The translations under genes were made by a program, and so were the position numbers. A stretch of DNA of 54,294 nt from Bacillota bacterium (GTDB taxonomy: Bacteria > Bacillota > Clostridia > Saccharofermentanales > Fastidiosipilaceae): positions 1 through 54,294 of the forward strand of contig JASGUU010000034.1 in assembly GCA_030057555.1 (NCBI GenBank). The letters are read 5' to 3'. Every line of letters starts with the position of its first letter. Within the stretch, counting starts at the first letter, position 1. The notes beneath the pieces are model-generated. The model saw only the letters and a list, made by a program, of their open reading frames with translations. It had not been told where the DNA came from and did no database searches. This document shows positions 5,801-42,207 of the stretch, piece by piece.

Positions 5801-7161
5801 GCGTTTTCACAGGCCCTGGCAATCTGGCCGGCGATGTCGACATAGATGGCCGCCAGATCGTCGGGGGAGGCGGTGTAGTAGCTGTCCGGGGAAGCGATTC
5901 TCTCCAGAATGTCCTGGCCGGTCTCATTGACCTCCAGGGCAATCGACCAGACCCGCTGGCCCGCATTCTTGGCAGAACCTGCCTGGGCGATGGCGGAATT
6001 GCCATTGTGGTAGCGGCAGTCTTTGTTCTGATAAGTCTCACAGAACGACGTCAGGTGGCTACCGGTCCCAACTCTTTCGCTGCCATAGGCCGAGCTGTCG
6101 TAGCCGGTTCCGGTTACCAGGAGTGAACCCTGCTCAACGTATCCGGCTCTGCGGATGTCGTCATTGGGAATCGCGTAGCTGTAGGTCGGTAGGCCGTCCG
6201 AGAGCAGCACCATGTGTTTGTTGTCGGCGCTGGTATTTGCCAGCAGAGCATCGGCCTGCTTGATCCCCGCCTGGGTAAAGGTCCCGCCAATGGCTTTCAG
6301 AGCAGAAATACTGGTTCTCAGCGCATCGGCATCGTTGGTGAGATCCTGGACAACATAGACGGAAGAGGCGAAACCGACCACGCCGATTCTGGTTGTATCG
6401 GAGGGCAGCAGCTGCTCGATAAAGTCAATGGCGGCAGCCTTCGCAGCATCCAGCCTCGTGCCCAACATGCTGCCGGAGGTATCGATGATCAGAATAATGT
6501 CGCTGGTTTTCTGGGTATCCACGCCCTCGATCCGCAGCGTCACATCCCAGGTGTTCACCATGCCGGCGACGGGGCTGCTCTCTTTGAACAGCATGACCTC
6601 GCCCGGCTGCGACGGATGGTCGGTTCCGATAATCGGAGGATCGTTGGCCCTGACGCCGCCGCGCGTTAAACGCCGCGGGGAAGGGAGGGCAAAGTCCGTT
6701 TCCGGATAACTGTGATAGTCGATCTCTCCCCCCTCGGGTGAGCTGTCGAGTTCCTCCAGATGATCCGGATTCTCCTCTCCCTTTTCGGGCGCGGGAGCGG
6801 GTTCTACTGTGTTCGCCGTACCCACCGGCGGCGGGGCCGCCTCGGTCACATCCGGCTCTTCTGACTCCACAGGATCCGGAGCCGCAGTGCTGGCTTCCGG
6901 AGCCTCAGTGTTGGTCTCCGGGGCCTCAGTGCTGGCCTCCGGGGCCTCGAGACTGTCGCCTTCTTCAGCATCCTCCTGGGATGTCTCGAGAGGGAGGGCC
7001 TCGTCGCTGCTCTCCTGCGGCAGGCTCTCATCGGAATACGATGGGCCGCCGTCCGCACCGTCCATGCCTTCTGCGATGATCGCCCCCGGTATGAACCCGG
7101 CGAGGATGAGCAGAGACAGGACAAGCGCCAGCAGACAATTTTTCCGTTTATGCCTCTCCAT
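2860..7161 (-). CDS. Sortase-anchored surface protein: VWA domain plus Cna-B/SpaA repeats
   Basis: Large cell-wall adhesin or pilin-like protein of 1433 residues. ATG at 7161 is preferred over an upstream in-frame ATG at 7224 because an AGGAGG sits at 7171-7176 and a signal peptide (about residues 1-32) starts there. An acidic, Thr/Pro-rich spacer with EAPEAS-like repeats covers about 40-165. A von Willebrand A domain follows (about 220-460) with an intact MIDAS motif D227-x-S229-x-S231 and D322. Next come a linker, two SpaA-like modules and about six Cna-B modules, each opening with a K-x-W (KVW, KTW, KIW) and closing with an N in VTN or INS. These are the usual Lys/Asn partners of isopeptide bonds, with a Glu between. 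The C-terminus has a TPRTG sorting motif, a hydrophobic segment and an RRRKA tail. It is divergent from the LytTR/kinase pair, which may control it. The ligand is unknown. Confidence 0.93.
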   Translation of the reverse strand: MERHKRKNCLLALVLSLLILAGFIPGAIIAEGMDGADGGPSYSDESLPQESSDEALPLETSQEDAEEGDSLEAPEASTEAPETNTEAPEASTAAPDPVESEEPDVTEAAPPPVGTANTVEPAPAPEKGEENPDHLEELDSSPEGGEIDYHSYPETDFALPSPRRLTRGGVRANDPPIIGTDHPSQPGEVMLFKESSPVAGMVNTWDVTLRIEGVDTQKTSDIILIIDTSGSMLGTRLDAAKAAAIDFIEQLLPSDTTRIGVVGFASSVYVVQDLTNDADALRTSISALKAIGGTFTQAGIKQADALLANTSADNKHMVLLSDGLPTYSYAIPNDDIRRAGYVEQGSLLVTGTGYDSSAYGSERVGTGSHLTSFCETYQNKDCRYHNGNSAIAQAGSAKNAGQRVWSIALEVNETGQDILERIASPDSYYTASPDDLAAIYVDIAGQIARACENAQISDPMGMGFVIPAAEVANISTVPATPAASYDPDTKKITWNPGTLTTPIEEGSNIKYAQLTYRIEINDDILDQTPEGDYYSTNGEATLSFTNAVGQTETRNFPVPKVDPILLVVEKVLYDSHGVPVTDDPYDRVFTVEVNGLSEGISWPEPYHQIFELRAGEKKIMTNLRLEDTYTVTETGVTYSGSPGDLGDYETNINVYGIDQATFQIRQGNPDSPVLVSNSEKPLGEILVYKKFEPLELLLMSASRTGGTPSSAAPVFNFVLLYQDGTGKEFTLKAGEYKLFENLPYGEYIVTEPDSQGFEVEYYDTDPTNGDYYDGRVTLTILEKEDEVTVVNRPRDDDMTVDIVGRKVWSGGPEADHVAVQMYLWRNGAILVSQPDYTVSPSSGTATEFTYTWEGLQKYDDNGVPYVYTINEGPAPDKYVKTVDDETLTVTNTFQPDMLERIEAEKIWRNGPTPRPTIYFELFRIIAGGVAEAVPGAEVKELRDGTTRVEWLNLPAEDNNGNPYFYYVVEKLSADGEPASPENYELDNEQPLTLINSYVIPRDSVTATKTWINGPQVHPEIWFKLYRSLEDEQTEEVPGAELKHLPDGTTEVVWEDIELTDINGNAYTFRVKEVDALGDDYVPEHYEKTEDGLTVTNSFVPPVDDFFVIKVWEDTPTDPHYIHPAVSIQLEYKTTADANWQVYPIPGELDGEKEVLAPDSCGEAEDWIFQWTNVPLTDLDGIPYEFRVVETAVPDNFVVTYDFWKDFTVINTWQTVDISGFKTWDDAGDQDRMRPESITIRVRGGGLEYSKVVTAADGWAWNFTQMPKFKDGELITYTVSEDPVPGYTSEVSGYNVTNTHVPGSIRVPVKKVWEDENNADKVRPDSVTIRLLVDGVYKGTSLVLSEKNGWSATFDNLPEYADGKKLIYTVDELPVDKYTAKITGDAQNGFVVTNCHEPVKDTPRTGRDGINPWLGLALLAAAAGILLIVRRRKA

Positions 7162-7178
7162 TACCTTGTACCTCCTGT

Positions 7179-7231
7179 AACTGGATTGAGCGGACAACTG
7201 GATTGAGCGAATAACTATCCACAATCCAGTT
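7179..7231 (-). promoter_or_regulatory. Leader with two competing 10-bp hairpins before the surface gene
   Basis: In the direction of the surface gene the leader reads AACTGGATTG (7231-7222), then CAATCCAGTT twice (7205-7196 and 7188-7179), then the AGGAGG site and the ATG at 7161. The first block can pair perfectly with either of the two identical downstream blocks, giving loops of 16 or 33 bases. The longer hairpin ends only three bases before the ribosome site. CTGGATTGAGCG is also a 12-bp direct repeat with a 17-bp period, so the same bases could instead be a DNA site for the LytTR regulator. The decayed cassette copy lacks this block. Confidence 0.5.
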
Positions 7232-7294
7232 TAAAAATGATGCCTGCTGTAGAACCAGTACCGGAATTGTTCAGCAGGTCAACCAAATCCGCAC

Positions 7295-7323
7295 TTGACA
7301 ATTTGCCTTTAATGAAGTAAATG
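7295..7323 (+). promoter_or_regulatory. Candidate promoter of the LytTR regulator gene
   Basis: TTGACA at 7295-7300, 17 bases, then TAAATG as a weak -10. The same 'CCAGTACCG ... GCACTTGACA' arrangement is kept in front of the regulator remnant at about 2435-2480, so it survived cassette duplication. Inferred from sequence only. Confidence 0.4.
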
Positions 7324-7392
7324 TTCAAAATAGCCTCCGTATTTTTATGACAGCGACAGCCATCGCACCAGACTGGGAGAAGGAGACAGTTT

Positions 7393-8124
7393 GTGGAAAC
7401 TCCGATCCAGATTGCCGTGTGCGAGGATGTGCCGGGAGACGTCGAGCGCCTGCTGCACTGTATTGACGAAAGCGGCCTTCCCGTTGCATGCCGGGTTTTC
7501 ACGGATTGTGCTGCGCTGCTGGCAGATTTTGCCCCCGGGAAATATGATCTGATCTTTCTGGACATCTACATGAACGATGTGCAGCAGGGAGTCAATGCCG
7601 CCGCCAGCATCCGGGAACTGGATGCGCTGGTGACGCTGGCCTTTACTACTGTCAGCCAGGAGCATGCCCTGGAGAGCTACCGCCTGAAGGTTTTTGCCTA
7701 TCTGGAGAAGCCCGTCCAGGCCCGGGATGTGCGGGAGGTGCTGGAACACGCCGGGGACAGGCGGCGGAACGTTCCCACCGTGCAGCTGCTCATCCAGGGT
7801 AAGTATCAGGACATTCCGCTGCAGAGCATTTTGTACTTTGAGTGCAAAAACCATGCTGTTTTCGTGAACACCCTGACAGGTGTTCTGCGCACCAGCCAGA
7901 CGGTGAAGCTGGGAGATATCGAGCCGCTGCTGCCGGACTGCTTTTTCCGCTGTCACAACAGCTATATCGCCAATCTACGTTATGTCAAGGAGCTGGATCG
8001 GGAACTGAAACTGTTCCGGATGCAAAATGACGATCCGGTCTATATCCGCCGTCAGTCCCTTGGCAGGGCGCTCAGGGCCTATGAACAGCAGCTGTTTGCA
8101 CTGGCCAGAGGAGAAGACATGTGA
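7393..8124 (+). CDS. LytTR-family response regulator (AgrA/LytR type)
   Basis: Two-domain regulator of 243 residues. The receiver domain (1-120) has the acidic pair E11/D12, phospho-acceptor D57 in FLDIYM, T85/T86 and the conserved K106 in YLEKP. The LytTR DNA-binding domain (about 130-237) has the typical FECKNHAVFV and FFRCHNSYIANL blocks. The start is GTG at 7393 behind AAGGAG (7379-7384). The stop overlaps the start of the kinase gene by four bases, so the two are translationally coupled and form a two-component pair. It is divergent from the surface gene, the natural candidate target. LytTR proteins bind direct repeats, and repeats are present at 7181-7209. Confidence 0.93.
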   Translation: METPIQIAVCEDVPGDVERLLHCIDESGLPVACRVFTDCAALLADFAPGKYDLIFLDIYMNDVQQGVNAAASIRELDALVTLAFTTVSQEHALESYRLKVFAYLEKPVQARDVREVLEHAGDRRRNVPTVQLLIQGKYQDIPLQSILYFECKNHAVFVNTLTGVLRTSQTVKLGDIEPLLPDCFFRCHNSYIANLRYVKELDRELKLFRMQNDDPVYIRRQSLGRALRAYEQQLFALARGEDM

Positions 8125-30012: not shown

Positions 30013-31539
30013 TCACCTGTCGCCCGTCGCCTGGCGCTTCGTCGTCGCGTTGAAAACCAGGTTTGCCGTGCCCCGGGCCGCCGTGTAGGCCTGTTCGCCA
30101 AAGCCGATGGGGTAGGGCTCCACATCCGCCCGGTCCGTCAGAATCAGGTCGATCAGCTCGATGAGGTCCTGCACCTTTTCGGGGCTGTTCGCAACGTAGT
30201 CCTCGCCGTGGAGCAGGCTCGCGCCCTCCTGATAGCGGTGTCCGCCGAGGAAGACCAGATCCTGATAGCCCGGCTGCTCGAGGAGGCGGGCGAAGCGCTC
30301 GAGATTCGCACGAAACTCCGAGAGCGGCCTGGCATCCGGCACCTGCAGCCAGCCGCCCAGGGCATCACCGGTGAACAGGACGCCGTGCGCCCGGTCGATG
30401 AAGACGACAGAGCCCGGCGTATGGCCGGCGAGCTCCACTACCTCGATCACGACCCCGCCGCCGAGGTCGATCGTGTCGCCGTCGCCGATGTCGCGGCAGT
30501 CCGCGAGCTGCAGCCTGAGATCAGGCAGCATGTCTTCTTCCCGTGACCACTCCAGCACCGGTGCCTCCGCATGCGACATGTAGACGGTATCGAAGCGGTC
30601 TGCATGCCGCAGGTGATCGAGATGGGCGTGGGTCAGCGCCAGTTCCAGCGGCAGCTGCGTCAGCCCGCGGACACAGGCGATGAGGTCGCCGTCACCCATG
30701 CCGGTGTCAATCACGAGGGCCTTGTCCGCGCCCACGACGACATAGCAGGTGTCGCCCCCGGCGTCGTCGATCTGCCACAGGCCCGGCCTGAGCCAGTCCA
30801 CCTCGTAGCGCGCCGCCCGGGACTGGGCGAAGAACCAGTCCAGCGCCTCCGCGTCGGCGTAGGCCGGCACCCAGGACGCATGGGCTCCGATGCCGTATTC
30901 CGCCTCCATGTAGCCGGCGGGATACTCGGTGTAGCGTACCTCACGGTTGCCGGCACCGCGCAGCGCGGTCACCATCGTCCGCGTCCCGGCGACCCGCTCG
31001 CCCGTCAGCCCGAAAAAGCTTCCGGTCACAGGCACCACCGGATCGTCCTCCGCGTGGAAGGCCCAGACCGGCACATGCCGCGCCGCCCGCACCAGCTGCG
31101 GCTCTCCGCCGCCGCAGATCGGCAGCGCCGCCGCGAAGAGCTGCGGATAGCGGCAGATCAGGGACCAGGCGCCCATGCCGCCCATCGACAGGCCCGTCAC
31201 GTAGACACGCGCCGGATCGATCGGCTCTGTCTCGAGCAGACGCCGGATCTCGGCAACCAGCAGACGCTGGAAACGATCGACATTCCAGGACTCACCCTCG
31301 GGGCACAAAGGCGCCAGCACATAGCAGGGCTGCCGCCGCTGCCATTCCGGTGTCGTGAAGATCAGCCACTCGTCATTTTTGAGCAGCTGCCAGACATCGG
31401 AGCCGCGCTCGCCGGCCCCATGCAGGAACAGGACCAGCGGGCGGCGCGCATCACCGGCAGCCTCTGGTTCAAACCAGAGATAGTCGAGGCAGCTGCCGTT
31501 CCTGTGCATCAGACGGGCGGTGAAGGGGGATTGGGACAT
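30013..31539 (-). CDS. Fusion of alpha/beta-hydrolase esterase and metallo-beta-lactamase-fold hydrolase
   Basis: 508 residues with two hydrolase domains. Residues about 1-240 form an esterase of the PHB-depolymerase/dienelactone-hydrolase type: oxyanion FLHGAGERG, nucleophile S118 in GLSMGG, D165/D166 and H220. Residues about 245-470 form a metallo-beta-lactamase fold with the full HAHLDH motif (H304, H306, D308, H309), H373 in GHTPGS, D392 in FTGDA and a final H434. Both active sites look complete. No signal peptide is seen, so it is cytoplasmic. ATG 31539 follows AAAGGAGG. It lies 42 bases after the beta-propeller gene and is probably co-transcribed with it. Removal of ester decorations and a second hydrolysis step on an imported glycan is an inference. 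Confidence 0.88.
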   Translation of the reverse strand: MSQSPFTARLMHRNGSCLDYLWFEPEAAGDARRPLVLFLHGAGERGSDVWQLLKNDEWLIFTTPEWQRRQPCYVLAPLCPEGESWNVDRFQRLLVAEIRRLLETEPIDPARVYVTGLSMGGMGAWSLICRYPQLFAAALPICGGGEPQLVRAARHVPVWAFHAEDDPVVPVTGSFFGLTGERVAGTRTMVTALRGAGNREVRYTEYPAGYMEAEYGIGAHASWVPAYADAEALDWFFAQSRAARYEVDWLRPGLWQIDDAGGDTCYVVVGADKALVIDTGMGDGDLIACVRGLTQLPLELALTHAHLDHLRHADRFDTVYMSHAEAPVLEWSREEDMLPDLRLQLADCRDIGDGDTIDLGGGVVIEVVELAGHTPGSVVFIDRAHGVLFTGDALGGWLQVPDARPLSEFRANLERFARLLEQPGYQDLVFLGGHRYQEGASLLHGEDYVANSPEKVQDLIELIDLILTDRADVEPYPIGFGEQAYTAARGTANLVFNATTKRQATGDR

Positions 31540-32943: not shown

Positions 32944-33269
32944 AGCCTGCCTCCCGCCGCGAATCCGGGCTCTGCCGGATTCTGTTGTCCGGCATAAATC
33001 TTCGCATAAGTAGATGCCGTCTGCATGATGGTTTATGACCCGATTTGCACTCTCCGCGCTGTTCCGGTGATTCATCTCAATGCACGGACGTGCTGCTTCA
33101 CGAACTCCATCCCGGTATGCCTGTCCGTCCCAATGCCTGGCAGCAGCCGGAGCACTGCTCGCCCTTCGATATAGTAAAAACAGTTGACAAAGTTGGCTCC
33201 TCTGCTACGCTCGCGGTAGATGGGTCATCGCAGGCAAAGGGCATAACGAGGCGAAGGGGAAGAGAATTC
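32944..33269. promoter_or_regulatory. Divergent regulatory region, with candidate ROK-operon promoter
   Basis: This 326-base gap separates the minus-strand hydrolase genes from the ROK gene. TTGACA at 33184-33189 followed after 16 bases by TACGCT is a weak plus-strand promoter candidate. The block GTTGACA-AAG...TCCTC resembles GTTGACA-TAG...TCCTC at the other promoter of the locus (37350), so both may share a regulator. No convincing gene lies in the gap. Confidence 0.4.
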
Positions 33270-34127
33270 ATGGCGCTTCAGATGACTGCAGGAAAGAATC
33301 CGAGCGACATACGCGCGCAGAATCTCCGTCTGCTGCTGGCTCTGCTCGTACGACACAGGCAGGTAACCCGTGTGCAGCTGGCACGTGCTACGGGCCTTTC
33401 AAAGACCAGCATCACCAATCTCGTTAATGAATGCCTACAGCTGGGCCTCATTGTGGAGACGGCCGAATCACGGCGCGCCCATGGCCGACCGGCCAAATAT
33501 ATCTGTCTCAGCAGCCATGCCCCTCAGGTCATTGGCGTCTCCGTCAGCCGCCTGTACATGACCTTTACGCTCGCCCGCCTCGACGGTGAGATCCTCAGCC
33601 TGCACCGCCATGCGATTGATGCCCGGCTCAGCTATGAGACCATGCTCGAGCACATCCGCACCGGCATCGCCGCCCTGATGGAAGCAACGACGGAAGCCGT
33701 GGTCGGCATCGGCATCTCGATGCTCGGTCCCGTCGAACCCTTCGAGGGCGTCCTCCTCGCCCCCCAGAACTTCATGCTGCGCCCCACCGTCTATCCCATT
33801 GCCGCCCCGCTGCGCGCCTGGGCCGGCATGCCGGTCCAGGTCATGCATGATGTGACAGCCGCCGTCCTGGCCGAACGCCTCTTTAATCCCGGCCGCAGCG
33901 AGGCCAACTTCGGCTTTCTCTCTCTGCATGCGGGGGTTGGTCTCGGACTTTGCCTGAACCATGCTCTCTACCAGGGCTCGGGCGGCTTCAGCGGCGAGCT
34001 CGGACACCTCTCGATCCATGCCGACGGCATCCCCTGCGCCTGTGGCCAGCGCGGCTGCCTCGAGCGCTATGCCAACCTCGACACCATGCGTGAACGCCAG
34101 CATGCCCTTGAACCCCTTTTCCGATGA
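33270..34127 (+). CDS. ROK family transcriptional regulator, N-terminal part (split gene)
   Basis: 285 residues from ATG 33270, after AAGGGGAAG. A MarR-like winged helix (about 15-75; VTRVQLARATGLSKTSITNLVNECLQLGLI) is followed by the first part of a ROK sugar-kinase-like domain, with the zinc motif GH-x6-G-x2-CxCGxxGCLE (GHLSIHADGIPCACGQRGCLE spans it) near the end. The frame stops at 34127, and the rest of the ROK domain continues one frame away at 34124. The usual NDAN of the kinase site reads HDVT, as expected for a repressor rather than a kinase. It is adjacent to, and divergent from, the glycan genes and is the likely local regulator responding to a sugar. Confidence 0.85.
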   Translation: MALQMTAGKNPSDIRAQNLRLLLALLVRHRQVTRVQLARATGLSKTSITNLVNECLQLGLIVETAESRRAHGRPAKYICLSSHAPQVIGVSVSRLYMTFTLARLDGEILSLHRHAIDARLSYETMLEHIRTGIAALMEATTEAVVGIGISMLGPVEPFEGVLLAPQNFMLRPTVYPIAAPLRAWAGMPVQVMHDVTAAVLAERLFNPGRSEANFGFLSLHAGVGLGLCLNHALYQGSGGFSGELGHLSIHADGIPCACGQRGCLERYANLDTMRERQHALEPLFR

Positions 34128-34507
34128 GTCCGCTCGCGGGACAGACAGGTGTCTCCTTTGCCGCCTTTATCCAGACAGCCGCCGCCGGCGATCCCCTCGC
34201 CACCATTGTCGTCAGTGACTACCTGGACCTCATCGCCACGGCCCTGGTCAGCGTGATGAATGTTCTCGCCCTCGACCTTATTCTGGTCGATTACGCGGGC
34301 ATGGAGGAAACGGATTATCTCGAGCGCCAGCTCGAGACCAAGATCGCCGCCCGCCACCGCCACCACAGCGGCCGTCAGGTTGCCGTTCGGCCTTCGCATT
34401 TTGGTCACCGCATCGCCGCCATGAGCTCGGTCGCCATCGTCGTCGACCAGGTGCTCAGCGGAGAGTTGCCGCTCATCGCCAATGCGACAGCCAGCAGGGG
34501 AGGATAA
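34124..34507 (+). CDS. ROK regulator, C-terminal part in a -1 frame
   Basis: 127 residues starting at ATG 34124, overlapping the stop of the N-terminal part (ATGA). It reads FAAFIQTAAAGDPLATIVVSDYLDLIATALVSVMNVLALDLILVDY, the normal C-terminal helices and strand of a ROK domain. Together the two parts give about 412 residues, a normal ROK length. Either a frameshift mutation or sequencing error split one gene, or the two halves are made separately by coupled translation. The run CCCCTTTT just before the junction is a plausible slippage site for any of these. No ribosome site precedes this ATG. Confidence 0.75.
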   Translation: MSPLAGQTGVSFAAFIQTAAAGDPLATIVVSDYLDLIATALVSVMNVLALDLILVDYAGMEETDYLERQLETKIAARHRHHSGRQVAVRPSHFGHRIAAMSSVAIVVDQVLSGELPLIANATASRGG

Positions 34508-34511
34508 GCCC

Positions 34512-35519
34512 ATGTCGGTCTACCGTGCGCCGCGCCTTGATCTCACGAAGACCCGCTGCTTCGATGTCGCGGGGCGCCACAACCTCGTCCGCATCGACAA
34601 TCTCCTGCGCCCGGCCGAGATTCTCGCTCCCGACTACGTTCCCACCCCCGCCGCCGCCGCCCTCGGCCGCGACCGGGCACTGCGCGAACTCGCCCGCGCC
34701 ATCCATGTGGCCCGCTCCGCCTCGCGCCCGGTCCTTCTCTTCTTCGGCGCCCATGTCATCAAGCGCGGCCTCTCGCCGCTGGTCATTGCCCTTCTCGAGG
34801 AGGGCCATGTCACCGCCGTCGCCTCGAACGGTGCCGGCAGCATCCACGACTTCGAGCTCGCCTGTCTGGGCGGCACCTCCGAGCACGTTCCCAGCGCAAT
34901 TGAGGACGGCAGCTTCGGCATGTGGGAGCAGACGGGCCGCGGCATGTGGGACGCCCTCCGTGCGGGCTCGGCCCGGGGCCTGGGCTACGGCGAGTCGCTC
35001 GCCGCCTGGGTCGAAGCCCATCCGCAGAATTTTCCCCACGTCTCCGACTGTGTCTTCGCCGCCGCCAGCCGCCTTGGCTGCCCTGCCACCTACCACGTGA
35101 CGGTGGGCACGGACATCATCCACCAGCATCCGACGGCCGACTTTGCCCTCCTCGGCGAGACGAGCGGACGCGATTTCGCGATCTTCTGCCATGTCGTCTC
35201 GGAGCTCTCGGGCGGCGTCTTCATCAATGCCGGCTCAGCCGTCACCGGTCCCGAGGTCTTTCTGAAGGCCCTCTCCATCGCCCGCAACCAGGGTCACGGG
35301 GTGCATCCCATCACAACAGCCAATCTCGACCTGCGCCCGCTGGCCCGGCCCACGGAAGAGCGTCTGTCCGACAGCGAGCCCGACTACTACTACCGTCCGC
35401 TCAAAAACATCCTCCAGCGTCCCACCAGCCTCGGCGGCCGCGGCCTCCGGATCACGGGCGACCACCGTGACAGCTTCGTGGCCCTCTACCGGCTCCTGCA
35501 TACGAAGGAGGCAGACTGA
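34512..35519 (+). CDS. Deoxyhypusine-synthase-like protein of unknown function
   Basis: 335 residues from ATG 34512 after GGGGAGG; an in-frame start 30 bases earlier is rejected. The core resembles the NAD-binding fold of deoxyhypusine synthase: GAHVIKRGLSPLVI, ASNGAGSIHDFE, VTVGTDIIHQHP, GSAVTGPEVFLKAL. The length and insertions differ from true DHS and no eIF5A exists in bacteria, so it does not make deoxyhypusine. I know of no assigned reaction for this subfamily. It overlaps the HldE-like kinase gene by one base (TGATG) and is followed by a HAD phosphatase. That order argues for a sugar or sugar-phosphate substrate, perhaps an NAD-dependent step. Function is left open. Confidence 0.75.
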   Translation: MSVYRAPRLDLTKTRCFDVAGRHNLVRIDNLLRPAEILAPDYVPTPAAAALGRDRALRELARAIHVARSASRPVLLFFGAHVIKRGLSPLVIALLEEGHVTAVASNGAGSIHDFELACLGGTSEHVPSAIEDGSFGMWEQTGRGMWDALRAGSARGLGYGESLAAWVEAHPQNFPHVSDCVFAAASRLGCPATYHVTVGTDIIHQHPTADFALLGETSGRDFAIFCHVVSELSGGVFINAGSAVTGPEVFLKALSIARNQGHGVHPITTANLDLRPLARPTEERLSDSEPDYYYRPLKNILQRPTSLGGRGLRITGDHRDSFVALYRLLHTKEAD

Positions 35520-36556
35520 TGCTTCGGGAATATAACTGTCCGGATTACGTCGATCGCGCCTGGCTGCAGGGCTTTGCCAGGCAAAGCCGGTCACTCGCGG
35601 CCGCCGTCATCGGCGACGGGGCCCTCGATGCCTGGTGGTTCTGCGACATGCGCCGTAGCGAGCTCTCCCTCGAGACACCCTTCCCCACCTGGCCGGTCGT
35701 CTCCGAACGCTATGGCTGCGGGGCGGCCGCGAATGTCGCCGTCCAGCTGCGCACCCTCGGTGTCGGCCGCGTCTGTCTGCTCAGCGTTATCGGGCGCGAC
35801 TGGCGTGCCGATCTCCTTGAGTCACTGCTTACAGCCGAAGGCATCTCAACAGAAGCGCTCATCCGCACACCTGAGCGCCAGACCCCGGCCTATCTGAAGC
35901 CCGTCCTTGAGGGGTACCCGGATGCCCCGGCAACTGAGGTCAGCCGCCTTGATTTCCTGAGCGCAGTCCCGCTCGCGGACGATCTGGAGGCCGAAATGCT
36001 GACCCGGATCCGCCGGCTCGCGGCCGAGGTCGACTTCATCATCGTCAGCGACCAGTACCTTCAGGGCTGTCTGACGCCCGCCCTGCGTGCTGAGATTTCC
36101 GCCATCGGCAGAGGTGGCGCCCTGCCTGTTGTTGTCGACAGCCGCCATCATCTCGGTGCCTACTCCCATGTCTTTGCCACCCCCAACCGCCACGAGGCCC
36201 GGGAGGTCAGCGGCTGTTTCGATCTTCATGAAGCCGGCCGCGAGCTCGCCCGCCGGCTCAGCCACGACCTCGCCGTCACCTGCGGCGGAGAGGGCGCCCT
36301 CGCGGTGATGGGCGGGGAGGTGCACCATCTGCACCCGCCCCGTCTGGACCGGATTGTCGATACGGTCGGCGCCGGTGACTGTTTCAGCGCGGCCCTCGCG
36401 GCCAGCTGGGCTGTCGGCCGGAAGAACGGGCAGGTGCCAGCAGGCCTCCGTGATGTCGCCTTTGCCACGGCCGTCGCCACCGTAAGCACCAGACAGCGCG
36501 GTACCGGACGCATCCGTCTCCATGAGGTGGAGGCGGTTCTTTTCGGGGAGACCTGA
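35519..36556 (+). CDS. PfkB kinase resembling the kinase domain of HldE/RfaE
   Basis: 345 residues. Residues about 30-125 follow the heptose-kinase pattern: VIGDGALDAWWF, then YGCGAAANVAVQLRTLGV and SVIGRDWRADLL. VDSRHH and TPNRHEAREVSG appear in the middle, and the second PfkB signature DTVGAGDCFSAAL (281-293) has catalytic D287. HldE phosphorylates D-glycero-D-manno-heptose 7-phosphate. The second, nucleotidyltransferase half of HldE is absent, and no GmhA isomerase is nearby, so the substrate is probably different. It is tightly packed between the DHS-like gene (one-base overlap) and the HAD gene (1-base gap). Confidence 0.85.
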   Translation: MLREYNCPDYVDRAWLQGFARQSRSLAAAVIGDGALDAWWFCDMRRSELSLETPFPTWPVVSERYGCGAAANVAVQLRTLGVGRVCLLSVIGRDWRADLLESLLTAEGISTEALIRTPERQTPAYLKPVLEGYPDAPATEVSRLDFLSAVPLADDLEAEMLTRIRRLAAEVDFIIVSDQYLQGCLTPALRAEISAIGRGGALPVVVDSRHHLGAYSHVFATPNRHEAREVSGCFDLHEAGRELARRLSHDLAVTCGGEGALAVMGGEVHHLHPPRLDRIVDTVGAGDCFSAALAASWAVGRKNGQVPAGLRDVAFATAVATVSTRQRGTGRIRLHEVEAVLFGET

Positions 36557-36557
36557 G

Positions 36558-37316
36558 ATGGATCTGTTGCAGATTCTGAAGCATCGTGCCATTCTCTTCG
36601 ACTTTGACGGCACACTTTCCCTGCTGCGCAGCGGCTGGGAAGCCGTCATGCGCGGCTTCATGCTCGACTGTCTCGACCCCACCGGCGCCGCCCATGCCGG
36701 ACTCGCCCCTCTGGTCGACGGCTACATTGCGGAGTCGACCGGCATCGAGACCGCCCGCCAGATGATCTGGCTCGCCGCCCGGGTGGAGGAGCGCCACGGC
36801 CCCTGGCCCGATCGTGATCTCTGGTGGTATAAGGCTGGTTATCTCGACCGCCTGATGACCATTGTAGAAGAGCGCATCGCCCTGGTGACGCAAAATCCGG
36901 CATTGATTCCCGCCTTTTCGGTCCCCGGCTCCCATGCCTTCGTGCAGCGCCTCGCCGCCGCCGGCTGTGAGCTCGCGATCGCCAGCGGCACCGACGATCC
37001 CGATGTCCGTCGTGAGGCCGCCCTCCTCGGCTTCGCCCCGCATTTCAACCTAATCGTCGGCTCGCCGCCCACCCGTCTCGCCTCGGGGAAGGAATACCTC
37101 CTCGGCCTGCTCCTCGAGCGCTGGGAGCCCGCCGAGATTCTGGTCATCGGCGACGGCCCCGTCGAGCTCCGGCTGGGCCGGGAGGCGGGCTGCCGGACCC
37201 TTGCCATTGCCAGCCGTGAGGGCGACAGCACGGCTGCCTGGTGCCGGAAGCGCGACCGCCTCGCCGCTGTCACGCCGGACGCCCTGCTGGAGGACTTTGC
37301 GACACTGGTAACTTGA
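36558..37316 (+). CDS. HAD superfamily sugar phosphatase
   Basis: 252 residues from ATG 36558, with GGGGAG eleven bases upstream. All HAD blocks are present: motif I LFDFDGTL (nucleophile D15, acid D17), motif II ASGTDD, the Lys in SGKEYLLGLL and motif III GDGPVELRLG. An alpha-helical cap between about 30 and 130 makes it a C1-type phosphatase like phosphoglycolate phosphatase or beta-phosphoglucomutase. As the third gene of the DHS-like/kinase/HAD trio it may remove a phosphate from the product of that route. The substrate is not identifiable. Confidence 0.85.
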   Translation: MDLLQILKHRAILFDFDGTLSLLRSGWEAVMRGFMLDCLDPTGAAHAGLAPLVDGYIAESTGIETARQMIWLAARVEERHGPWPDRDLWWYKAGYLDRLMTIVEERIALVTQNPALIPAFSVPGSHAFVQRLAAAGCELAIASGTDDPDVRREAALLGFAPHFNLIVGSPPTRLASGKEYLLGLLLERWEPAEILVIGDGPVELRLGREAGCRTLAIASREGDSTAAWCRKRDRLAAVTPDALLEDFATLVT

Positions 37317-37350: not shown

Positions 37351-37379
37351 TTGACATAGTATCCTCAGCGTGAAAGAAT
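37351..37379 (+). promoter_or_regulatory. Candidate promoter of the aldolase-transporter-mannosidase operon
   Basis: TTGACA (37351-37356), 17 bases, AAGAAT (37374-37379). It lies in the 124-base gap after the HAD gene, about 60 bases before the aldolase ATG, and shares the GTTGACA...TCCTC pattern with the region before the ROK gene. Confidence 0.5.
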
Positions 37380-37440: not shown

Positions 37441-38325
37441 ATGAACTGTACTTTTTGTGGAACTGTTGTACCTCTGGTCACCCCCTACAAACCCGATCTC
37501 GCTCTGGATCTCGACGGCTTTGCGGCTCTGCTGCAGCACTTTGATACCCGGGATGCGGTGGATGGTCTCTTTGTCATGGGAGCTACAGGCGAATATGACC
37601 GTCTGAATTTCGCAGAACGCTGTCAAATACTGGACCTGCTGCTTGAATTGCAACTCAAAACCGCCTGGATACCGAACATCTCGAGCCTCGAGTGGGAGCC
37701 TTCGCTGGCTCTCGCACGCTATGCAGGTGAGCGCGGAATTGAAACAGTAGGTTTTATTCTCCCGGCAGGCTGTCGCTCTTTCGCCGATGTGCGCCGCTGT
37801 CTCAGCGAACTGCGCGACATGGGACTTAAGGTCTTTGTCTATCAGACAGGGAATTCGCCCTATCCGCTCACAGCGGAAGAGCTGGGAGAGCTGGTGGACG
37901 CAGATCTCCTGACAGGCATCAAAGACAGCTGCAGCAATACCAACATGTTTCGTCATCTGCGCTACGTGGCGGAACAGGGAGAGCGGATCACTGTCATTCA
38001 GGGTGTCGAGATGCTCTATCTCTCGTCGCTTTGCCTTGGTGGTGCCGGGGTTATCGGCGGTGGCTGCAATGTCTATCCCGAGCAGCTTACAGCGATCCGC
38101 CGGGCCTGGGAAAGCCGCGACCTTGAACGTGCCCGGCAGATCCAGCGTGATGTCAATATCTGGATAGAAGGTATTTATAACGAGGGCAGTGGTCTGGAGA
38201 GCATGAAGTACTATCTGGCGCTTTCCGGAGTGCCGATCGGGACCGCTTCGCGCTCTTCCTCCGGTGAGCTGAGCGCCACGAAGCGTGGCTGGGTGGAGGC
38301 ACTGCATCGACGGCTTCCAGGTTGA
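37441..38325 (+). CDS. DapA-family class I aldolase/synthase (KDG aldolase or N-acetylneuraminate lyase type)
   Basis: 294 residues, full length for the dihydrodipicolinate synthase/NAL superfamily. Visible residues: pyruvate-binding G-x-TGE block GATGEYDRL (48-55), Tyr134 in FVYQTG and the Schiff-base Lys161 in GIKDS. These enzymes split or join a 2-keto acid and an aldehyde. Placement in a transporter/mannosidase operon argues for a catabolic 2-keto-3-deoxy sugar acid aldolase rather than lysine synthesis. The ATG 37441 has only a weak AACAAGG site. Codon use is less GC-biased than in the gene before it. Confidence 0.86.
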   Translation: MNCTFCGTVVPLVTPYKPDLALDLDGFAALLQHFDTRDAVDGLFVMGATGEYDRLNFAERCQILDLLLELQLKTAWIPNISSLEWEPSLALARYAGERGIETVGFILPAGCRSFADVRRCLSELRDMGLKVFVYQTGNSPYPLTAEELGELVDADLLTGIKDSCSNTNMFRHLRYVAEQGERITVIQGVEMLYLSSLCLGGAGVIGGGCNVYPEQLTAIRRAWESRDLERARQIQRDVNIWIEGIYNEGSGLESMKYYLALSGVPIGTASRSSSGELSATKRGWVEALHRRLPG

Positions 38326-38396
38326 CGGTGCTGCATGGACGGAAGGTAGGGGAACGGATTTCCGCAGGGAAACACAAGGAAAAGAGGTGTGAAGAC

Positions 38397-40262
38397 ATGC
38401 TGAAAAGGAAGAGAGGATTGAAGTGGCTGAGCGCTTTCGCGGCGCTGGGTCTGCTGCTTGGCATAATGGCCGGTTGTCAGGGTGGAACGGAGCAGCCCAC
38501 CACGGCCGGCCCGACTACCAGGCAGGAGGCTGCTGCGGATACGACAGCAGAAGCTCCGAAAAAGACCGAAGCCCCCGAAGAGACGGAGGCTCCCGAAACG
38601 GAAGCCCCTGAAGAAACGGAGGCTCCAGAGACTGAAGCTCCCGAGACAGAGACGGCGGGTGAACCTACACCGGTTACGATCTGGTATACCATCGGCCGCT
38701 TTACCATCGACGAGCGGACGGATCAGATTCCGCGTGAGGAAGATCTCGGCTTTCTCGAGGAAAAGTTCAACATCAAACTCGATTTCGTCACATCTCCGGG
38801 CGATCAGGCACGCGACCAGCTCGGAATACTGCTGTCCACCAATTCCATGCCGGACATCGTGGCTACGCCGGGAGCTTACGACACGTTTCTGATCCGCCCC
38901 GACCAGTTGTTTACCGATGGCCAGATCATTGACCTCGGCACGGTGATCGATCAGATTCCGACCTACAAGAGCATCATCGATGAGAACCCGGTGCTGATGA
39001 AAAACGTGATGGATGATGAGGGTCATATCCTGTATTTTGGCATGCCCATCTTTGAAGCCGAGATCGGCATGTCCGGCGGTCTGATGCTGCGCCGTGACTG
39101 GGTCGAAAAACTGGACATGGAGATGCCGCAGTCGATTGACGATTTCCTCAACATCCTGCGCGCCTTCCGTGACAAGGATCCCAATGGCAATGGCGAAGCG
39201 GATGAGATTCCTTTCTGCGGCACTCAGGGTTCACTGCAGGTTATTGGCAACCTCCTCGGTGTTCAGGAGACCTTCTCCATGGTCGGCGGTTCCGGCGGCC
39301 AGGTCGTCTTTGGTCCCTTCGAGGAGGAAATCTACCGCGAGCGCCTGAAGCTGATCCGTACCATGGTCGAAGAGAAACTGATCAACGAGAACTACTACAA
39401 CTTCGATATGCAGATGCGCGATACCTGGATTTCGGAGGATCGTATCGGTGCGGCGCTGACGGGTCTTGGCAACCTTGACAAGTGGAACAATCTGATGGCC
39501 GATCACGAGAGCTTTCTGATGTGGCCCTTTGATAACCCTGCCCAGGAGGACGGCAACCGCTACTTTGACCGTACCGATCTGTCGAAGGCCATGCGCCATG
39601 ACATCACCATGATCTCATCCAATGCTCTGGATCCGGGCGTCTGTGCCGCTCTTCTGGACTATTTCTACACCGATGAAGGTCACATGCTTCAGACCTTTGG
39701 CGTGGAAGGTCTGACCTACGAGATGGACGGCGACTTCCCCCACTATACGGACCTGATTCTGCATAATCCCGACGGCCTCGGTGTTGGTGATGCTCAGGTG
39801 AAATATATCGGCATTCCGGGTGCCCGCACCTATGAGGATCTGCGTGTCTGGGCCCAGCTTTCACTGACAACACCTGCTTCACGCCAGGCTGCCATGAAGA
39901 CCTGGACCGACACGTTTACCGAAGAGACCAATACTCCGATTCCACCGGCCATGATGACCGTCGATGATGCGGACGAGTATGCGACGATCATGGCCGACCT
40001 GCAGACCTACCTGCTGGAAAGCGTCGCGAAGTTCACGACCGGCGAGTGGGACATCGATACGCAGTACGACGCCTTTGTCGAAGAGTGCCGTGTGCTGGGT
40101 GCCGAGCGTGCGCTCGAATTGCAGGATATCGCGATCAAGGCCTGGCAGGAACGCGGCGGAGTTCCCTACGAATTCACGCTGCAGCGGGCTGAAATCGACT
40201 GGTCGAAGATCCCGTTCCTGAGCGAACGCGGCATCGAATACATGGATCCCAGCCTCCGCTGA
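38397..40262 (+). CDS. ABC importer solute-binding lipoprotein (LplA/YtcQ-like, large)
   Basis: 621 residues from ATG 38397, after AAGAGGTG. The lipoprotein signal ends in LGIMAGC (Cys at about residue 25). A repetitive acidic linker with EAPEETEAPETEAPE units (about 45-90) tethers the binding domain to the membrane. The rest is the two-lobed family 1-type solute-binding fold; large versions like this go with the LplB/LplC permease type that imports complex oligosaccharides such as those from pectin, xylan or N-glycan. The two permease genes follow at once. The repeat linker is similar in composition to that of the surface protein at 2860-7161 and the transglutaminase-like protein. Confidence 0.92.
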   Translation: MLKRKRGLKWLSAFAALGLLLGIMAGCQGGTEQPTTAGPTTRQEAAADTTAEAPKKTEAPEETEAPETEAPEETEAPETEAPETETAGEPTPVTIWYTIGRFTIDERTDQIPREEDLGFLEEKFNIKLDFVTSPGDQARDQLGILLSTNSMPDIVATPGAYDTFLIRPDQLFTDGQIIDLGTVIDQIPTYKSIIDENPVLMKNVMDDEGHILYFGMPIFEAEIGMSGGLMLRRDWVEKLDMEMPQSIDDFLNILRAFRDKDPNGNGEADEIPFCGTQGSLQVIGNLLGVQETFSMVGGSGGQVVFGPFEEEIYRERLKLIRTMVEEKLINENYYNFDMQMRDTWISEDRIGAALTGLGNLDKWNNLMADHESFLMWPFDNPAQEDGNRYFDRTDLSKAMRHDITMISSNALDPGVCAALLDYFYTDEGHMLQTFGVEGLTYEMDGDFPHYTDLILHNPDGLGVGDAQVKYIGIPGARTYEDLRVWAQLSLTTPASRQAAMKTWTDTFTEETNTPIPPAMMTVDDADEYATIMADLQTYLLESVAKFTTGEWDIDTQYDAFVEECRVLGAERALELQDIAIKAWQERGGVPYEFTLQRAEIDWSKIPFLSERGIEYMDPSLR

Positions 40263-40340: not shown

Positions 40341-41318
40341 ATGGCTTTCATGCGCAACAGAAAAAGAGACGTAAGCGATGCGCCCACAGCATCGCCTGCC
40401 AGGCGACGGGACTGGCGCGCCTACTTCGCCCGCACCTGGTTTATCTATCTGATTTTTCTTATTGTGCTGATATGGTACGGCATCTTTCGCTATGCGCCGA
40501 TGTATGGTGTCCAGATTGCCTTCCGCCGCTACACGCCCTCAGCCGGTATCTGGAACAGTCGCTGGGTGGGACTCAAAAACTTCGAACGCTTTTTTACCAG
40601 TGCCTATTTCACGCGGGTGTTTCGCAACACGATTGTGATGAATCTGCTGAATCTGATCTTTGCCTTTCCCGCCCCGATTGTCTTTGCCCTGATGCTGAAC
40701 GAGATCCGGCACAGTGCCGTCAAGCGAAGCATTCAAACGATCAGCTACCTGCCTCACTTTATTTCGATGGTGGTTCTGACCGGCATCATGCATGACTTCC
40801 TGAATGATACGGGGACGATTACCACGCTGCTGAACAGGGTCTTTGGTCTGCCGCGGAAGGTCTGGCTGAACGATGTCAACGCCTATCGCACCATCTATAT
40901 CCTCTCCGATATCTGGAAGGACCTCGGCTGGAGCGCCATCATCTATCTCGCAGCGCTGTCCAATGTCGATACCGATCTCTATGACGCCGCCGAGATCGAC
41001 GGCTGCGGCTCCATCCGCAAAATAATCTATGTGACCCTGCCCGGCATCGCGCCGACCATCATCATTCTGCTCATTCTGCGCATAGGGAGCATGCTGAGTC
41101 TGGGGGTCGAGAAAACGCTGCTGCTCTATAATCCCAATACCTGGGAAGTTTCCGACATCATTTCGTCGTTTGTCTACCGCCGCGGCTTCGGCATCGACGG
41201 ACGTGCTGATTATTCCTTCAGCACTGCCGTTGACCTGTTTAACGCGGTCGTCAACCTCTGTCTGCTGACGCTGGCGAACATTGTCGCCCGCCGTTTCAGT
41301 GAAACGAGTCTATGGTGA
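40341..41318 (+). CDS. ABC sugar permease, LplB/YteP type
   Basis: 325 residues with six membrane helices and a cytoplasmic basic N-terminus. The EAA loop reads DAAEIDGCGSIRKIIYVTLPGI, which contacts the ATPase. GVQIAFRRYTP and WVGLKNFERFF near the N-terminus are typical of LplB/YteP permeases. ATG 40341 has GGGAGGAAG directly upstream. It pairs with the next permease. No ATPase gene is found in the locus, so a shared MsmK/MsmX-like ATPase coded elsewhere probably powers it. Confidence 0.93.
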   Translation: MAFMRNRKRDVSDAPTASPARRRDWRAYFARTWFIYLIFLIVLIWYGIFRYAPMYGVQIAFRRYTPSAGIWNSRWVGLKNFERFFTSAYFTRVFRNTIVMNLLNLIFAFPAPIVFALMLNEIRHSAVKRSIQTISYLPHFISMVVLTGIMHDFLNDTGTITTLLNRVFGLPRKVWLNDVNAYRTIYILSDIWKDLGWSAIIYLAALSNVDTDLYDAAEIDGCGSIRKIIYVTLPGIAPTIIILLILRIGSMLSLGVEKTLLLYNPNTWEVSDIISSFVYRRGFGIDGRADYSFSTAVDLFNAVVNLCLLTLANIVARRFSETSLW

Positions 41319-41325
41319 GGTGCGT

Positions 41326-42207
41326 ATGCTGAGTCGTTCATGGCGCCGGTCGCCGGGGGATGTTGTTCTCAAGGCTGTCATCGCCGTTGTGATGCTGGTG
41401 ATCGTCATCGTGACGCTCTATCCGTTCTGGTATATCTTTGTCGCCTCCTTCAGCGATCCCCGCGAGGTGGTCAGGACCAGTGGCATCATGATCTGGTTCA
41501 AAGGCTTCGACCTTTATGCCTACCGGGAGGTGCTGAATTATCGCCTGATCTGGATTGCCTATCGCAACACCCTTGTCTATCTCTTCTTCGGACTGATTGT
41601 AAACATGACCATGACGGTTCTCGCCGCCTATGCCTTTTCACGGAAAAATGTCATAGGGAGCGGAGTCATGATGAAACTTGTCGTCTTTACGATGTTTTTC
41701 AGCGGCGGCATGATTCCCAACTACATTATTGTGGATTCTCTGGGTCTGACCAATACCATGTGGTCGCAGTTTGTTCCCTATGCGATCAACACCTACAACC
41801 TCATCATCCTGCGCACCGCCTTTCAGGCGATTCCCGATTCGATCGAAGAGGCGGCCATCATCGACGGTGCATCCCCGGCCCAGCTTATGGTGCGCATCGT
41901 CCTTCCCCTGGCTCTGCCCAGCATCATGGTCATCGGCCTCTACTACACCGAGGAAATCTGGAATTCCTATTTCCGCGGCCTGCTCTATCTGCGTTCGGAC
42001 CAGAAGTACTCGCTGCAGATGGTGCTGCGCATGATTCTGGATACGAGCCACACGGGTCAGTCCGATCAGGCCTTTGTCAATACAAATATCGACCGTACCG
42101 TGAAATATGCCTCGATCATTGTGTCGACGCTGCCGGTGCTGATGGTCTATCCGTTTATTCAGCGCTATTTTGTCCAGGGTGTCATGATCGGTTCAATCAA
42201 GGGCTGA
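41326..42207 (+). CDS. ABC sugar permease, LplC/YtcP type
   Basis: 293 residues, six helices. ATG 41326 is chosen for GTGAGGTG seven bases upstream; an in-frame start at 41281 would overlap the previous gene. The EAA motif reads EEAAIIDGASPAQLMVRIVLPLALP. The family opening (TLYPFWYIFVASFSDP) and FSGGMIPNYI are present. It forms the heterodimeric channel with the permease at 40341, in the same order as in Lpl/Yte systems. It is followed by a 210-base gap and the long GH38 gene. Confidence 0.93.
   Translation: MLSRSWRRSPGDVVLKAVIAVVMLVIVIVTLYPFWYIFVASFSDPREVVRTSGIMIWFKGFDLYAYREVLNYRLIWIAYRNTLVYLFFGLIVNMTMTVLAAYAFSRKNVIGSGVMMKLVVFTMFFSGGMIPNYIIVDSLGLTNTMWSQFVPYAINTYNLIILRTAFQAIPDSIEEAAIIDGASPAQLMVRIVLPLALPSIMVIGLYYTEEIWNSYFRGLLYLRSDQKYSLQMVLRMILDTSHTGQSDQAFVNTNIDRTVKYASIIVSTLPVLMVYPFIQRYFVQGVMIGSIKG

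Follow-up and report, generated by a model that had tools for sequence, protein, structure and literature searches.

A conserved trio of genes for a deoxyhypusine-synthase-like protein, an HldE-like kinase and a HAD hydrolase may encode the core of a phosphosugar pathway, possibly with a new enzyme reaction

Results

Arrangement of the three genes

The stretch of DNA analysed here, referred to as the window, is the 54,294-nt contig JASGUU010000034.1 of assembly GCA_030057555.1, from a Bacillota bacterium (Saccharofermentanales; Fastidiosipilaceae). It contains a trio of genes encoding a protein that resembles deoxyhypusine synthase (DHS), a PfkB-family kinase, and a HAD hydrolase, which are referred to as P0001, P0002, and P0003, respectively (Table 1). 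The original prediction, made from the sequence, described the three genes as overlapping or nearly touching, and this is what the coordinates give. Genes 1 and 2 are joined by TGATG, with the stop codon at 35517-35519 and the ATG at 35519-35521 (a 1-base overlap), and genes 2 and 3 are one base apart (36557). Each of the three starts is preceded by an AG-rich, ribosome-site-like stretch. Upstream in-frame ATGs are available for gene 1 at 34482 and for gene 3 at 36522. The GC content at third codon positions is 0.76-0.85 in the trio versus 0.59 in the lyase-like gene downstream.

Table 1. Features of the trio locus in the window
Feature	Coordinates	Strand	Score or basis
P0001, DHS-like protein, 335 residues, NCBIfam NF052581 (GSU2086 family)	34512..35519	+	359.8 bits
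P0002, PfkB-family kinase, 345 residues, nearest the HldE kinase domain	35519..36556	+	PF00294, TIGR02198
P0003, HAD hydrolase, C1-cap type, 252 residues	36558..37316	+	PF00702, model, co-occurrence
ROK-family regulator in two frames	33045-34127 and 34124-34507	+	PF00480, MarR_2
Dihydrodipicolinate synthase (DHDPS)/N-acetylneuraminate-lyase-like protein	37441..38325	+	PF00701 86.9 bits
Lipoprotein-like open reading frame (ORF)	38322-40262	+	precedes ABC permeases
Two ATP-binding cassette (ABC) transporter permeases	40341-41318 and 41281-42207	+	PF00528 in both

Fold and invariant residues of the DHS-like protein

P0001 is a member of NF052581, for which the curated cut-off is 250 bits; the family model names no reaction. 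No Pfam family, DS (PF01916) included, matches P0001 over its cut-off, and a search of the genome found no Pfam DS match either. Against PF21570 (ArgZ/AgrE C-terminal), P0001 reaches 13.9 bits, below the cut-off of 27. The likeness to DHS that had been noticed lies in the fold. Structure prediction, as had been suggested, gave an AlphaFold2 model with a predicted local distance difference test score (pLDDT) of 91.9. The model matches DHS 7cmc_C with an E of 1e-6 (Foldseek), DHS 8put_A with a Z of 19.2 (274 residues, root mean square deviation (rmsd) 4.1), human DHS entries with a Z of up to 17.6, and the ornithine-cyclodeaminase (OCD) domain of AgrE (6lrf_B) with a Z of 19.7 (221 residues, rmsd 3.3). 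Hence, P0001 is predicted by its model to have a DHS/OCD fold.

P0001 and DHS share this fold, but the two are only about 11% identical and their gene neighbours differ. Compared through narrow profiles with three DHS homologues from bacteria, the P0001 family reached 8.5% probability over the N-terminal part only; with broader alignments, the match to DHS was colinear over the full length, at 89% probability. The AgrE/ArgZ C-terminal domain has a fold like that of P0001, with a sequence match confined to one segment; unlike AgrE/ArgZ, P0001 has no dihydrolase domain. The HDxE segment is common to the P0001 family and the cyclodeaminase group in sequence-profile matches. Profile matches to P0001 in the same segment come from LOR/SDH-like proteins, a label assigned by reading and not by a family scan.

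We then inspected 100 aligned proteins, P0001 included and domains under 270 residues excluded. The polar residues unchanged in 100/100 include Arg22, His81, Asn106, His112, Asp113, Glu115, Glu124, His195, Asp201, Lys252, Asp273, Tyr293, Arg295, and Lys298. All three bacterial DHS homologues have SWGK around the catalytic lysine, whereas the P0001 family has R295-x-x-K298 (100/100). In DHS, Lys329 makes an imine with the substrate, according to PMC7226451. K298 falls within the segment that holds Lys329, the exact register being left unfixed by the profile alignment.

A longer form of the DHS-like protein, of about 366-402 residues, is found in a Verrucomicrobiota sample (loci L127-L131, L134, and L135); none of these loci has the kinase or HAD of the trio nearby. 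In L127 and L129, the two of these that were inspected in the alignment, Met replaces Glu248.

The kinase and the HAD hydrolase

P0002 scores 90.3 bits with PF00294, above the cut-off, and 135.6 bits with TIGR02198 (HldE/HldA heptose-7-phosphate kinase), under the equivalog cut-off of 345. It has no nucleotidyltransferase half, in agreement with its earlier description as the kinase half of HldE. The GAGD motif is intact in 19/19 kinases. P0003 is a HAD hydrolase as predicted, with 54.1 bits for PF00702 (cut-off 26.4) and a model with a pLDDT of 93.3, the fold of which is like that of phosphatases and beta-phosphoglucomutase. It scores 13.8 bits with the HAD-IIIA model, below the cut-off of 44.6; HAD-IIIA is the subclass of GmhB.

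Linkage and fusions across loci

A scan of genome contigs yielded at least 555 DHS-like relatives among at least 590 pattern matches, of which the best 80 were kept. Removal of L082, a duplicate of L009, left 79 loci. The profiles used to search for linkage were built from these same loci, and some of the contigs are short. Within 5 kb and on the same strand as the DHS-like gene, the kinase is present in 57/79 loci, the HAD in 53/79, and both in 48/79; the DHS-like gene and its partners are hereafter called the module. The tabulation of neighbours that had been proposed thereby links the kinase and HAD to the DHS-like gene in records naming several phyla, the titles including Clostridia, Verrucomicrobia, Kiritimatiellae, Chloroflexota, and Solidesulfovibrio. 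A SIS protein is nearby in 20/79 loci. Seventeen of the 79 loci have neither partner nearby on the same strand; one of them, L081, has both on the opposite strand.

The families of the module are also joined within single proteins. A HAD-DHS-like fusion is found in 9/79 loci and a DHS-SIS fusion in one. SIS is fused to HAD in L008 and L140, HAD to the kinase in L171, and a nucleotidyltransferase to the kinase in L126 and L092.

The kinase has no nearby same-strand copy in 22 loci, and 18 of their genomes were searched. Fourteen of these have a kinase elsewhere (two of the matches are fragments and two carry stops). Fifteen of the regions around an unlinked kinase were read, and in six of them the kinase adjoins the HAD. 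The Verrucomicrobiota sample comprises 12 regions, with the kinase nearby in four and the HAD in three.

Co-occurrence across genomes

NF052581 matches above the cut-off are present in 5/58 genomes of the relatives set and in 6/299 sampled genomes of the phylum, the window's own genome being included in both, and in 13/145 genomes from the phylum of L047, the L047 genome included. At most 7-10 candidates were scored per genome. Among the 299 genomes, the six carriers have the six best kinase scores, ranging from 481 to 241 bits, and the next score is 218 (Fisher p 1e-12 for kinase versus carriers, with the cut picked after the scores were seen). At an E of 1e-20, the HAD is found in 5/6 carriers versus 0/293 non-carriers. 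In G135, the carrier lacking a HAD match, the module lies on a contig of 3.8 kb whose end falls within the kinase gene. A long-type SIS (>200 bits) is found in 5/6 carriers versus 13/293 non-carriers (Fisher p 2.6e-6); on its own, it also occurs outside module genomes. G337, the one carrier without it, encodes a short SIS joined to the HAD, which is the L140 fusion. The kinase alignment took rows from the carriers G000, G294, and G337, the other carriers being independent of it; the HAD alignment took rows from G000 and G294, and the SIS alignment from G294. The L030 and G294 stretches look identical.

The co-occurrence and the fusions rule out a chance adjacency of the three genes, and with the linkage they strongly bear out the original view that the trio is a unit.

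An isomerase and a ROK sugar kinase

The original prediction noted the absence of GmhA and proposed that the DHS-like protein stands in for an isomerase. We searched for SIS proteins in 32 module genomes, picked for having no neighbouring SIS and including the window's own. A module-type GmhA-like SIS is encoded elsewhere in 30 of them (in G358 at 101 bits only). In the window's own genome, it lies on another contig (C56, 4674-5246; 221.6 bits with alignment A9) inside a 551-residue ROK kinase-SIS fusion, with 50.9 bits for Pfam SIS_2. Hence, GmhA is missing from the neighbourhood of the trio but a GmhA-like protein is present in the genome, and the DHS-like protein as isomerase substitute is rejected, as the SIS accompanies the module in 30/32 genomes.

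A ROK gene is located immediately 5' of the SIS gene in L193 and L195. As the SIS is found elsewhere and the ROK protein is fused to it or encoded directly before it, an isomerase is present, and judging from these sequences a ROK sugar kinase is probably a fifth activity of the module. In Thermosediminibacter litoriperuensis (L030), a single cluster holds the genes of the DHS-like protein, kinase, HAD, SIS, and ROK kinase. The partner SIS is nearest to GmhA as the kinase is to HldE, all under the equivalog cut-offs. Specifically, the L030 SIS scores 153.2 bits with TIGR00441 (cut-off 209.45) and 165.1 bits with PRK13936 (cut-off 276), and the L002 SIS scores 120.4 and 123 bits, respectively.

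Discussion

A heptose-like route to a sugar-1-phosphate

In ADP-heptose synthesis (GmhA, HldE, GmhB, HldD), a kinase and a HAD phosphatase shift the phosphate to C1 after the GmhA isomerase has acted. The module shares with this pathway the families of its isomerase and kinase and the pairing of a kinase with a HAD, which supports the heptose resemblance noted earlier, and has the DHS-like enzyme and the ROK kinase in addition. The ADP-heptose pathway needs a nucleotidyltransferase, and none is evident in the window's own genome. ADP-heptose as the product there is not supported, as the TIGR02199 nucleotidyltransferase model gives only a partial match of 19.9 bits.

From the families, fusions, and co-occurrence present in the sequences and the DHS/OCD fold of the model, we infer NAD use, a substrate, an order of steps, an epimerisation, and an anabolic direction as follows. 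The trio would be the core of a five-activity phosphosugar pathway, with ROK and SIS supplied in one protein from the other contig. A free sugar, probably a manno-configured hexose or heptose, would be phosphorylated at its far end by ROK and isomerised by SIS. The HldE-like kinase would then phosphorylate C1, and the HAD would remove the distal phosphate to leave a sugar-1-phosphate. The DHS-like protein would bind NAD and oxidise and re-reduce one of the phosphorylated intermediates without net redox change, most likely in an epimerisation (or elimination) with the invariant Lys, His, and Asp residues as catalysts. An epimerase or elimination role is proposed because the known proteins with the DHS fold employ NAD in reactions that are redox-neutral overall. 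Biosynthesis of a sugar-1-phosphate is favoured because the kinase and phosphatase would shift the phosphate to C1 and nucleotidyltransferases are fused to the kinase at some loci. This heptose-pathway-like route, with a redox-neutral, NAD-dependent change made by the DHS-like enzyme, is the reading we favour, tentatively and in the knowledge that it could well be wrong. The bolder claim that a DHS-fold enzyme has taken up redox-neutral, NAD-dependent work on sugar phosphates and forms a new enzyme class (an epimerase or lyase, perhaps acting through a K298 imine), defining a heptose-like pathway to an undescribed sugar-1-phosphate, is doubtful.

A counterpart is found in Geobacter sulfurreducens, where GSU2086, which gave the family its name, sits by locus number between hldE (GSU2085) and gmhA (GSU2087), according to PMC5585712. 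Compared through the family model and locus number, the window differs in having a kinase without the nucleotidyltransferase and an isomerase on another contig. The same source reports transposon sequencing on electrodes with log2 ratios of -3.1, -3.2, and -3.7 for insertions in GSU2085, GSU2086, and GSU2087, which places the three among the mutants dropping by log2 2 or more.

Searches of the open literature on the family and on the pathway found no described function, in keeping with the original suggestion of an undescribed pathway. The proposed pathway would be a variant of the heptose-type phosphosugar route, and the family name NF052581 already exists, without a reaction. Should the DHS-fold enzyme catalyse a reaction on a sugar, it would represent a new class of enzyme, and its place in a phosphosugar pathway would add a new chemistry to the DHS fold. 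A function would follow for hundreds of NF052581-family genes, a single scan having yielded at least 555 loci. The set is defined (DHS-like protein, kinase, HAD, SIS, and ROK), co-occurs tightly in the sampled phylum, spans several phyla, and has a fitness phenotype in Geobacter, which makes the reaction directly testable. A pathway with a possibly new enzyme reaction may lie behind the conserved trio.

Several observations weigh against a biosynthetic route of this kind. Four of the 18 genomes searched for an unlinked kinase have none. In the Verrucomicrobiota sample, 8/12 regions have neither the kinase nor the HAD nearby; seven of these eight genomes were searched, and four have only kinases of 144-168 bits. 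Two of the 32 genomes in the isomerase search have no module-type SIS. Five genomes of one family (G084, G193, G245, G269, and G314) carry a long-type SIS and HldE-like kinases whose best scores are 195-217 bits, two of the kinases lying about 3-5 kb from each other, and have no NF052581 match; by sequence, this is a related set that lacks the DHS-like step. L092 and L126, where the nucleotidyltransferase fusions are found, have no module-type HAD nearby. The fold of P0003 fits beta-phosphomutase and phosphatase equally, and the fold search did not split them. The partial TIGR02199 match of the window's own genome covers positions 10-47 only, the cut-off being a strict one that 3/14 control genomes reach. 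As no nucleotidyltransferase is evident here, the fate of the sugar-1-phosphate is unexplained. The neighbours of the module, considered below, add to these points.

A catabolic alternative

We scanned 107 of 163 chosen flanking proteins (out of 394 non-core ORFs in total), nearly all from loci with the kinase. The ORF clusters include spurious antisense ORFs and were used solely to pick neighbours for inspection. ROK proteins account for 23/107, often with Clostridia copies, and GH38 alpha-mannosidase and sugar ABC transporter genes also lie beside Clostridia copies; together these neighbours suggest catabolism. Gfo/Idh proteins and glycerate kinase are further catabolic neighbours. A scavenged manno-sugar, released by GH38 and imported by the ABC transporter, would be passed through ROK, SIS, the PfkB kinase, HAD (as mutase or phosphatase), and the DHS-like protein into central metabolism. 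The ROK-SIS fusion fits such a route, as does the window copy, which is flanked by a ROK-type regulator and ABC permeases and has the lyase-like gene next to it. A second kinase plus a phosphatase would look wasteful in catabolism, however, and some loci have a different setting. In L165, the HAD-kinase pair lies amid envelope and housekeeping genes (WecG/TagA, ThyX, thymidylate kinase, and YceG), with U32 genes there as well, and in L063 the DHS-like gene is accompanied by GT2 and YfhO. The Geobacter copy affects growth that depends on a surface (PMC5585712). We consider the catabolic route unlikely, if still a serious contender.

L166 has an ORF layout similar to that of L165, judged by layout alone, and in L161 and L163 the kinase comes after a type III pantothenate kinase. 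At L165, L166, L161, and L163, the pathway may belong to core metabolism. Further neighbours of the envelope or housekeeping kind are a PMT_2 mannosyltransferase-like protein in L126 and, on the Solidesulfovibrio plasmid of L092, pseudaminic and nonulosonate genes; three radical SAM genes also adjoin the L092 copy.

Retained C-N chemistry or a polyamine enzyme

The DHS-like protein could instead have kept the chemistry of its fold relatives, oxidising, deaminating, or transferring the amine of an amino sugar or sugar-amine conjugate while the kinase, HAD, and SIS process the sugar part. The two folds nearest to that of P0001 belong to DHS and to the cyclodeaminase domain of AgrE. AgrE acts on C-N bonds, as does DHS (PMC7226451), and to our knowledge the characterised DHS-fold members all act on amines. 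The invariant K298 (100/100) lies in the segment of the imine-forming Lys329 of DHS, but the K298-Lys329 register is not established. Some loci have N-acetylneuraminate-lyase-like and GlcNAc-2-epimerase neighbours. On the other hand, the SIS and kinase are nearest to heptose enzymes, whose substrates are nitrogen-free, and the conserved R22, K252, R295, and K298 suit an anionic substrate. Retained C-N chemistry is improbable on this balance.

The original prediction gave eIF5A as the known DHS substrate, which is incomplete: PMC8437039 and PMC8594446 describe DHS homologues from bacteria as homospermidine synthases, though these belong to another family than P0001. In view of these homologues, P0001 might act on polyamines, as a homospermidine synthase or DHS, and merely sit beside sugar genes, which is very hard to credit given its lack of a Pfam DS match, R295-x-x-K298 (100/100) in place of SWGK, the HAD and SIS fusions, and the tight kinase/HAD co-occurrence. 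A genuine DHS with eIF5A or polyamines as its substrate was rejected as the principal explanation, since neither P0001 nor its genome has a DS match. Among 33 other module genomes, two have a PF01916 match above the cut-off.

Other features of the window

The first ORF of the ROK regulator upstream of the trio scores 108.5 bits with PF00480 and also matches MarR_2; a Pfam scan of the second ORF gave no family match. The ROK protein of L009 aligns to frame 1 and then to frame 3 of 33045-34507, and for this reason the regulator looks frameshifted or misassembled. Two other ROK relatives align to frame 1 only. Judging from these alignments, the regulator is probably one frameshifted gene, and it is a possible regulator of the trio.

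Downstream, a TTGACA box was read by eye at 37351, so that the lyase-like and ABC genes may form their own transcription unit; the lyase-like gene is possibly separate from the trio in this respect. Close relatives of the lyase-like protein are encoded near the module in L009 (7948-8880) and L083 (13532-14512), with 363 and 373 bits. L038 has a DHDPS-family gene (6856-7782), which the lyase-like protein of the window does not match at an E of 1e-5, beside a BNR (sialidase-like) protein. The lipoprotein-like ORF has no Pfam match. Farther upstream, the C-terminal half of the ORF at 30013-31539 carries a metallo-beta-lactamase domain, and the N-terminal half looks alpha/beta-hydrolase-like by eye, without a Pfam match.

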